Origin: Nitrospira sp. LK70
GTDB lineage: Bacteria; Nitrospirota; Nitrospiria; Nitrospirales; Nitrospiraceae
NCBI GenBank assembly: GCA_011090425.1
Contig: PHGD01000010.1
Span: 1-64,000, forward strand
DNA: 64,000 nucleotides
Direction: 5' to 3'
Below are positions 257 to 571 of the stretch, one piece after another (positions within the stretch are counted from its first letter, which is position 1; the number at the start of each line of letters is the position of its first letter). A program made the position numbers and the translations under genes. The notes under the pieces are model-generated. The model worked only from the letters and a program-made list of their open reading frames with translations. It was not told where the DNA came from and ran no database searches.

Positions 257-346
257 GGAGAGGTGCGAGAGCGGCCGAATCGGGCAGTCTCGAAAACTGC
301 TGTCGGGGTAACTCGACCGTGGGTTCGAATCCCACCCTCTCCGCCA
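257..346 (+). tRNA. tRNA-Ser(CGA)
   Basis: The 90-nt sequence folds as a class II tRNA. Acceptor GGAGAGG pairs with CCTCTCC, followed by discriminator G and an encoded CCA at 344-346. The anticodon stem GCAGT/ACTGC encloses loop CTCGAAA, giving anticodon CGA (reads UCG). A long variable arm (GTCGGGGTAACTCGAC) and the T arm GTGGG-TTCGAAT-CCCAC are present. All serine hallmarks are met. Its 3' end recurs in inverted and direct orientation within the next 200 bp (see 410-547). Confidence 0.96.
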
Positions 347-409
347 AACCAGCAGCCGTGTCTGCGCAATTTGTCAAACCGATCCAAAACCCATCGCCCC
401 AAGAACAAC

Positions 410-547
410 AGAGAGAGGGTGGGATTCGAACAAGAGGGTCCGCGGGGGAAAGGTTCCCCCGCGTGGGGAGCGTACGAGGGGGCTTGGCCCCCTCAGTAGG
501 AGCGTGAGCGTCTCGGCGAACGCGACTTCGAATGCCCACCCTCTCGG
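410..547. repeat. tRNA-Ser 3'-end-derived structured element
   Basis: Positions 412-431 are the reverse complement of tRNA positions 323-342 with 19 of 20 bases matching. Positions 526-547 carry the same tRNA 3' end in direct orientation with one extra G. The two arms are inverted to each other and enclose three hairpins: CGCGGGGGAA/TTCCCCCGCG at 441-463, GAGGGGGC/GCCCCCTC near 476-494, and a weaker GCGT/ACGC fold at 502-522. No credible gene lies here. It resembles a REP- or MITE-like palindromic element, or a decayed integration site at a tRNA gene; which of these cannot be told from one copy. Confidence 0.6.
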
Positions 548-569
548 CATCTTGCTGGGCAAGATGCCG
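545..569. terminator. Strong hairpin, possible terminator
   Basis: An 11-bp perfect stem (CGGCATCTTGC / GCAAGATGCCG) with a 3-nt loop sits immediately 3' of the minus-strand DUF2779 gene and downstream of the tRNA element. There is no T run, so a rho-independent terminator is not certain; a transcript boundary between convergent units is the likely role. Confidence 0.5.
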
Positions 570-571
570 GA

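Follow-up and report, generated by a model that had tools for sequence, protein, structure and literature searches.

The window, that is, the whole stretch of DNA analysed, is 64,000 nucleotides long and forms the start of a contig (G000:C192) in a Nitrospira-like genome. Near its left end a tRNA-Ser(CGA) gene is followed by a short structured element and then by a converging 507-residue gene (572–2095, minus strand), the orthologue of which in G024 is a DUF2779 protein by Pfam. The tRNA gene and the adjoining element consist of the following segments.

257–346, plus strand: tRNA-Ser(CGA) gene with encoded CCA, the target of the element and source of its arms (ARAGORN; Rfam RF00005).
347–412, plus strand: spacer between tRNA and element, 66 bp in this copy; part of the inserted unit, judging from occupied and empty sites at tRNA-Gly(CCC) and tRNA-Ser(CGA).
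413–431, plus strand: inverted arm, the reverse complement of tRNA bp 323–341 (T-loop to acceptor stem; 19/19 match).
432–440, plus strand: lead-in to the core, AAGAGGGTC, which is AGGGGNTTC-like in most copies (alignment A1).
441–463, plus strand: core hairpin H1 (DNA and RNA folds; covariation).
464–472, plus strand: conserved linker TGGGGAGCG (alignments A1 and A5).
473–498, plus strand: core hairpin H2, TACGAGGGGG/CCCCCTCAGTA (DNA and RNA folds; covariation).
499–526, plus strand: a GGAGC motif, hairpin H3 (about 502–523) and then GAC (folds; alignment).
527–548, plus strand: direct arm, which repeats the tRNA 3′ end but for an additional base (G534) and is eroded past 545 (sequence; extra-base counts; family comparison).

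A preliminary description of this DNA had noted an inverted copy of the tRNA-Ser end at 412–431. Its count of 19/20 is confirmed, and the match is perfect over 413–431. A 19-base inverted match was reached in none of 2000 base shuffles of bp 347–600, the longest being 13. The direct copy with one extra base is also there, at 527–545; it reads TTCGAATgCCCACCCTCTC, with the extra G at 534, and continues with GGC where the tRNA has CGCCA. The arm has 11 exact bases and the one extra base, and is eroded after 545; an 11-base exact direct match was reached in 2 of 2000 shuffles of the same segment. The segment folds far better than shuffles, both as DNA (z −8.2) and as RNA (z −7.2). In the predicted fold, bp 413–431 pair with bp 527–545, forming a long stem around three GC hairpins (about 441–463, 473–498, and 502–523), so that the arrangement of two arms enclosing three hairpins, as first described, is borne out by the DNA and RNA folds alike.

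An 11-bp hairpin at 545–569 had been counted as part of the element. It does not belong there, as most other copies continue into CGCCA at this point and only G018 shares the hairpin, which in the window adjoins the stop codon of the converging gene, whose end is three bases away. As for the insertion-sequence end suggested upstream (1–140), a Pfam scan of the 28-residue translation of bp 5–88 gave no match. Spurious open reading frames of 60–130 residues, on both strands, span the tRNA and element between bp 161 and 575; loci of this kind may be annotated with Arg/Pro-rich proteins by gene-prediction programs.

The element belongs to a family with a fixed layout: a tRNA gene, a spacer, an inverted copy of the tRNA 3′ region, three GC hairpins, and a direct copy of the tRNA 3′ end. 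When the core was searched in its own and related genomes, a check that the preliminary description had proposed, it recurred at other tRNA genes, each time with the end of that tRNA. The host genes are those for tRNA-Ser, Thr, Gly, Asp, Met(CAT), Ala, Leu, and Arg, with the element downstream in a single orientation. In total, 154 distinct copies are spread over 19 tRNA anticodon types. An annotated upstream sense tRNA is found for 136 of the 154, always in the same orientation, and the remainder lie mostly after truncated tRNA genes or in the context of a ~245-bp repeat (see below). The tRNA-to-element spacer is about 5–140 bp in most copies, and the number of copies per genome ranges from 1 to 11, the maximum being found in G271.

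A covariance model, R1, finds copies in 33 of 59 relatives and, at E 1e-4, in 69 of 295 genomes of the phylum, representing 24 of 135 genera. The genomes include a family of another class, f17, where R1 matches are full-length but weak and lie behind tRNA-Arg and tRNA-Leu genes; the arms of the Arg copies fit the resident tRNA-Arg. The genome of the window carries the core behind tRNA-Met(CAT) as well; the core is also found behind tRNA-Thr(CGT) (L130) and, in a decayed copy, behind tRNA-Gly(GCC) (L131). Nitrospira moscoviensis NSP M-1 has two copies or more, one at tRNA-Asp(GTC) (L065) and one at tRNA-Ser(GGA) (L073). The tRNA-Ser segment is present in many relatives at 80–96% identity, with two or three units in some. 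A 21-base core pattern searched against 84,980 species genomes retrieved 25 stretches, all but two of them named Nitrospira, Nitrospirae, or Nitrospiraceae. A Streptomyces stretch (L062) was rejected as a chance match, having neither tRNA nor arms; a contig labelled uncultured Nitrosospira (L063) holds a real copy at tRNA-Met(CAT) and is probably a mislabelled or mixed bin. A pattern scan of IMG/VR and a blastn search of plasmids and phages gave no match to the element. Rfam, at gathering score and at relaxed E-values, returned only tRNA and chance matches and no family for the element, and no published literature on Nitrospira repeats at tRNA genes was found.

Since bp 413–548 of the window are one copy of a widespread family, the fallback of the preliminary description, local debris, is excluded. 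Its preferred idea, a self-contained repeat with a borrowed tRNA 3′ end acting as a tRNA-targeting mini-element, was right in kind, given that the core recurs at other tRNAs with fitting ends. That reading was supported only in part. Its comparison with REP-like elements is not borne out (see below), and it missed the variation of the arms with the host tRNA, the range of the family over the order and into another class, and the layout shared with the tRNA-linked repeats (TLRs) of E. coli.

Another repeat, TACCGCACTTCGTGTGTACCGCC...GGCGGATAAACACCTTCAGTGT, often starts right at the tRNA CCA (L153, L155, L156, L161–L168, L316, L320) and has displaced the left half of several elements (L014, L017, L059, L316). 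The last of these (G000:C148:4211–4581) is a half-eroded copy behind tRNA-Gly(CCC), with its left half replaced by this repeat.

The core stems are maintained by compensatory changes. Among 46 cores, 95.3% of cells pair versus 88.0% in shuffles, and 75 cells are doubly changed versus 18.2 in shuffles; none of 500 shuffles was as good, and sliding the stem partners destroys the signal. This covariation across the family is better evidence of the fold than the z of a single stretch from N. moscoviensis, where the tRNA-Asp stretch alone, as RNA, folds little better than shuffles (z −1.0) and its flank pairs otherwise. Distinct stems with a G.T (G.U) pair on the tRNA-sense strand number 44 versus 8 with an A.C pair, counts that are somewhat inflated by the shared ancestry of the copies. 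Because a G.U pair is good only on the strand that folds, the excess shows the tRNA-sense strand to be the folding strand. Mutation bias is an unlikely cause of the excess, because in the arms, compared with the tRNA, C>T changes do not exceed G>A changes. The G.U preference fits RNA and single-stranded DNA alike, and the working fold may be of either. An intrinsic terminator was considered and rejected, as a T-run is absent after both H1 and H2.

A tree of the cores, built from 71 core columns and poorly resolved, requires 14 changes of isotype (44.8 when shuffled) and 6 changes of host family (28.7 when shuffled). The low number of isotype changes indicates that cores mostly keep to one tRNA type, with an occasional switch that is always accompanied by fitting arms. 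A grouping by host lineage only is rejected, since cores of one isotype cluster together in the tree, as do those of one family. A core thus seldom jumps to another tRNA type, and much of its spread may have been by descent or, at a given tRNA, from genome to genome.

The two arms vary with the resident tRNA, while the core is common across tRNA types. Scored in 130 copies, each within 500 bp of its tRNA, inverted arms reach 14.9 against their own tRNA, versus 10.4 ± 0.22 when the tRNAs are permuted, the highest of 300 permutations being 11.2. No other isotype fits as well as the resident tRNA for the direct arm of 113 of the 130 copies and for the inverted arm of 96. An example is the tRNA-Ser(GCT) copy of G049, the arms of which, GAGAGGGCGGGATTTGAAC and CTTCAAATgCCCGCCC, both carry the base changes of that tRNA. 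Inverted arms are of two types: those of Ser copies span the T-loop to the acceptor, and those at Thr, Gly, Asp, Ala, Met, and Arg genes correspond to the T-arm's 5′ side. The direct arm mostly has one extra base relative to the tRNA, though not in every copy. Exactly one is present, after the T-loop, in 28 of the 41 Ser copies parsed; many non-Ser copies have it inside the 5′ T-stem (e.g., GTGcGG for GTGGG), and the Gly(CCC) direct arm, GGTTCAAATCCCATCGCCCGCTCCA, is identical to the tRNA 3′ end. The copies of G018 and G001 at tRNA-Thr(CGT) (L138, L150) are hybrids: the direct arm corresponds to the standard tRNA, and the inverted arm to a variant tRNA-Thr half that lies beside it, where inserted DNA ends. 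A primer-binding site of the LTR style was also considered for the inverted arm and rejected, as the Ser inverted arms omit the CCA end and those of other types sit at the T-stem.

Comparison of relatives reveals empty sites. The tRNA-Gly(CCC) gene is empty in G001 and G020; in G001, CCCGCTCCA is followed directly by AATTTTCAAGTGCTT. The same gene is occupied in G012 and G018; in G012, CCCGCTCCA is followed by spacer, arm, core, and arm, ending in a second CCCGCTCCA and then AACTTTCAAGTACTT. The old 3′ flank resumes after the direct arm. It follows that a unit of about 175 bp has been added, with the tRNA 3′ end as the direct repeat. The comparison of occupied and empty sites holds at tRNA-Ser(CGA) too. 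These alignments show relatives that have the unit and others that lack it behind one and the same tRNA gene; as the tRNA 3′ end is duplicated at the end of the unit, the gene remains whole. The inserted unit comprises the spacer, the inverted arm, the three-hairpin core, and the direct arm, and measures about 175–210 bp.

One to three units are found per locus. Tandem units number three in G039, where the spacers are near-identical, two in G054, and three in G024. At the tRNA-Ser of G024, a 3.8-kb cargo of three genes lies between units two and three (L039:12933–15900); one gene encodes a DUF5677 protein, the other two are without a Pfam match, and no integrase was found among the cargo reading frames by Pfam. 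At the tRNA-Thr(TGT) of G012, a ~20-kb stretch has the element on both sides, and the tRNA is immediately preceded by a gene for a tyrosine recombinase. In a genome of another class (G106; L192, 1000–1500), tandem units stand behind a tRNA 3′ half, with a terminator-like hairpin and T-run before each. In G296 (L080/L180), tRNA-Gly(CCC) is cut in the anticodon-arm region and fused directly to the inverted arm of the element; this fusion is a deletion with one end at the arm.

The core also occurs in a second context, inside an unrelated ~245-bp repeat in G271, G238, G374, G380, G381, G251, and G185. The repeat has terminal inverted repeats of about 20 bp, TAGCCCACATTATTCATGA/TTCATGAATAATGTGGGCTA, and is a MITE-like element. 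Most of the fetched copies are empty at the core position, where GAGCCGCGA directly abuts GGGAGGGAGGC. In the copies with the core, another small hairpin stands in for the tRNA arms. The repeat is abundant over the order (L232–L261, including an own-genome copy, L258, at G000:C166:212–354), and either it or the core alone is matched in 111 of 196 genomes searched. A core-only model did not find a third context among the loci examined.

We suggest that the element is a non-autonomous mobile cassette of tRNA 3′ ends, the Nitrospirota counterpart of the TLRs of enterobacteria, a reading to which we give an even chance. It is based on the empty sites, the arms that track the tRNA, the covarying core, the fold of the sense strand, the tandem units, the second repeat context, the island of G012 bordered by the element, and the like layout and varying number of places per genome of the E. 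coli TLRs. The unit is proposed to enter by recombination at the tRNA 3′ end, with a recombinase that probably acts in trans. The enzyme would use the sense strand, folded by two inverted copies of the T-arm, much as folded single-stranded attachment sites are used. Islands that use the same tRNA for integration may in addition carry the unit from genome to genome. A read-through transcript of the tRNA would yield a folded RNA with a tRNA-like end, so that insertion would be harmless. As to how an element acquires the arms of a new tRNA, the simplest guess is that template switching would copy the target in both directions. Neither excision nor a circle of the element was seen, and no enzyme is tied to it; the moving agent is inferred, by analogy, to be a trans-acting recombinase that would mobilise the unit through a folded single strand. 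As the agent, a Y1 transposase or a reverse transcriptase was rejected: neither is matched at E 1e-5 in G271, and the phyletic pattern needs neither. The reverse transcriptase domain, PF00078, is also without a match in the copy carriers G021, G024, and G005, among others. The pattern of presence and absence could partly reflect loss through recombination between the direct repeats.

The most serious rival holds that the element is a functional RNA, a structured 3′ extension of the tRNA transcript freed by tRNA-type processing and acting as a small RNA or a processing module, with the match between arms and tRNA demanded by processing enzymes or by folding of the tRNA. We consider this unlikely, but it has to be taken seriously because of two observations. 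On the sense strand, G.U pairs are in excess and the arms show no surplus of C>T changes; and rrB, an E. coli TLR, is reported to be transcribed, to undergo processing at its repeated 3′ end, and to bind Hfq and CsrA (PMC8144298). Strong covariation of the core and the position of the E. coli TLRs within tRNA operons also favour an RNA. However, a functional RNA would hardly be expected to be so patchy among close relatives, with clean empty sites, to have decayed or half-replaced copies, or to have its core within an unrelated repeat. The terminator-like hairpin and T-run that separate the tRNA end from the element in G106 (L192) also count against this rival, as does the lack of an Rfam family match.

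A second rival makes the element a by-product of replication. Template switching at the T-arm would produce both copies, correction of the quasi-palindrome would keep the arms matched, and the core would be a passenger in the hairpin loop. The order of tRNA, flank, reverse complement, core, and tRNA is the trace expected of a fold-back and return, and the mixed arms of the G018 and G001 hybrids look as if re-copied from the nearest tRNA. Local copying, however, is insufficient to account for a conserved, covarying core across many tRNA types and in a second repeat, which makes this rival decidedly improbable as a full account. That the copies are ordinary attachment-site debris of tRNA-integrating islands, with no element of its own, is scarcely credible: inserted DNA does use these tRNA genes, leaving tRNA 3′ halves, and one of these genes has a tyrosine recombinase gene as its neighbour, but debris would not carry a covarying core and an inverted tRNA copy in 154 copies at 19 anticodon types, and the family-wide core contradicts it.

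Among known systems, the proposed mobile cassette resembles folded attachment sites in its architecture. The attP(+) of the CTX phage and the attC of integrons have inverted copies resembling recombination sites with hairpins between them, fold in a strand-specific manner, and carry an extra unpaired base in the stem. The element likewise has two inverted att-like copies, here T-arms, around hairpins, a strand-specific fold, and an extra base. In contrast to those sites, its arms are the tRNA T-arm rather than dif or R boxes, and no integrase, phage, or cassette genes are linked to it. In the alignment, the attC R boxes GTTRRRY/RYYYAAC are not found, and the T-loop motif GTTCRA occupies those places. 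Of an attC-type array there is the one cargo between units in G024, and tandem units elsewhere. REP and REPIN sequences with their RAYT are also short, GC-rich, and palindromic, and the preliminary description had drawn the comparison with REP-like elements. The likeness goes no further: the element is present in 1–11 copies per genome, either at tRNA genes or within one other repeat, and G271, with the most copies (11), has no match to the Y1 (TnpA-REP) transposase, PF01797, at E 1e-5. Genomic islands at tRNA genes are marked at their ends by direct repeats of the tRNA 3′ end and keep the tRNA whole (Islander, PMC4383910). The element also ends in such a repeat and leaves the tRNA intact; in contrast to islands, it has an inverted copy and a conserved core, and a unit of about 175–210 bp is too short for any integrase gene.

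The closest likeness is to the E. coli TLRs, known since 1978 (Egan and Landy 1978 and Rudd 1999, as cited in PMC8144298). They number 22 sequences at ten loci, with one to five per locus, in tRNA and rRNA operons; their last 18–19 bp are the 3′ end of the upstream gene, and until that work they were without known function (PMC8144298). Members include rtT/rttR at tyrV, the copies of argVYZQ and the lysT operon, and rrA, rrB, and rrF behind 5S (PMC8144298). TLRs and the Nitrospirota family both lie downstream of tRNA genes, in the sense orientation, and end by repeating the 3′ end of the upstream gene. The position just downstream of a tRNA or rRNA gene is found in the window (257–548) and in 136 of the 154 copies, the identical 3′ end of 18–19 bp is found in the direct arms of the family, and the one to three units per locus fall within the TLR range.

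The word "inverted" does not occur in the text of the TLR paper (PMC8144298). When the K-12 loci at tyrV, argVYZQ, and the lysT operon were read here, each had an inverted arm, a shared three-hairpin core, and a direct tRNA end. The inverted arms are about 8–10 bases long (GGGGAAGGAT for Tyr, GGGAGGAT for Arg, and GTGaAGGAT for Lys), and the shared core consists of CGTTGC-loop-GCAACG, CCCGAAGGG, and a third hairpin. Taken singly, arms this short are not all beyond chance; the case for them is their recurrence at the same place by the core at three tRNA types. The K-12 rrnB copy has the common TLR core with a self-hairpin instead of the inverted arm, a replacement like that seen with the Nitrospira core in its non-tRNA context. 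The lysT-operon copy matches 1 to 12 places per E. coli genome.

The two families differ in that the cores are unrelated and the Nitrospirota arms are longer (about 14–19 bp), covering the T-arm; clean empty sites and a context away from tRNA genes are further features of the Nitrospirota copies. The best scores of models R1 and R2 in the tyrT locus, 5.0–6.2 bits (E 0.34–0.5), are not significant, and core relatedness is no part of the published definition of TLRs. We class the window element as a new form of TLR on the strength of its layout, not of descent. A broader proposal is that the Nitrospirota family and the E. coli TLRs, with their unrelated cores, are one class of mobile elements across phyla, each writing its own target-specific arms, inverted and direct, upon insertion, so that the folded single strand could recombine at any tRNA 3′ end and leave the gene unharmed. 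This proposal is tentative and, we think, possible rather than probable. A second TLR-like family in another phylum shows what is constant, namely the inverted arm, the three hairpins, and the direct tRNA end, and what varies, namely the core and the arms set by the tRNA. To the E. coli case it adds empty sites that are clean, arms switched with the host, evidence on the folding strand, and a context outside tRNA genes, and the question of whether such sequences are mobile elements or RNA genes is thereby made testable. If the arms are made anew for each target, mobile elements would have a novel means of adapting to their targets.
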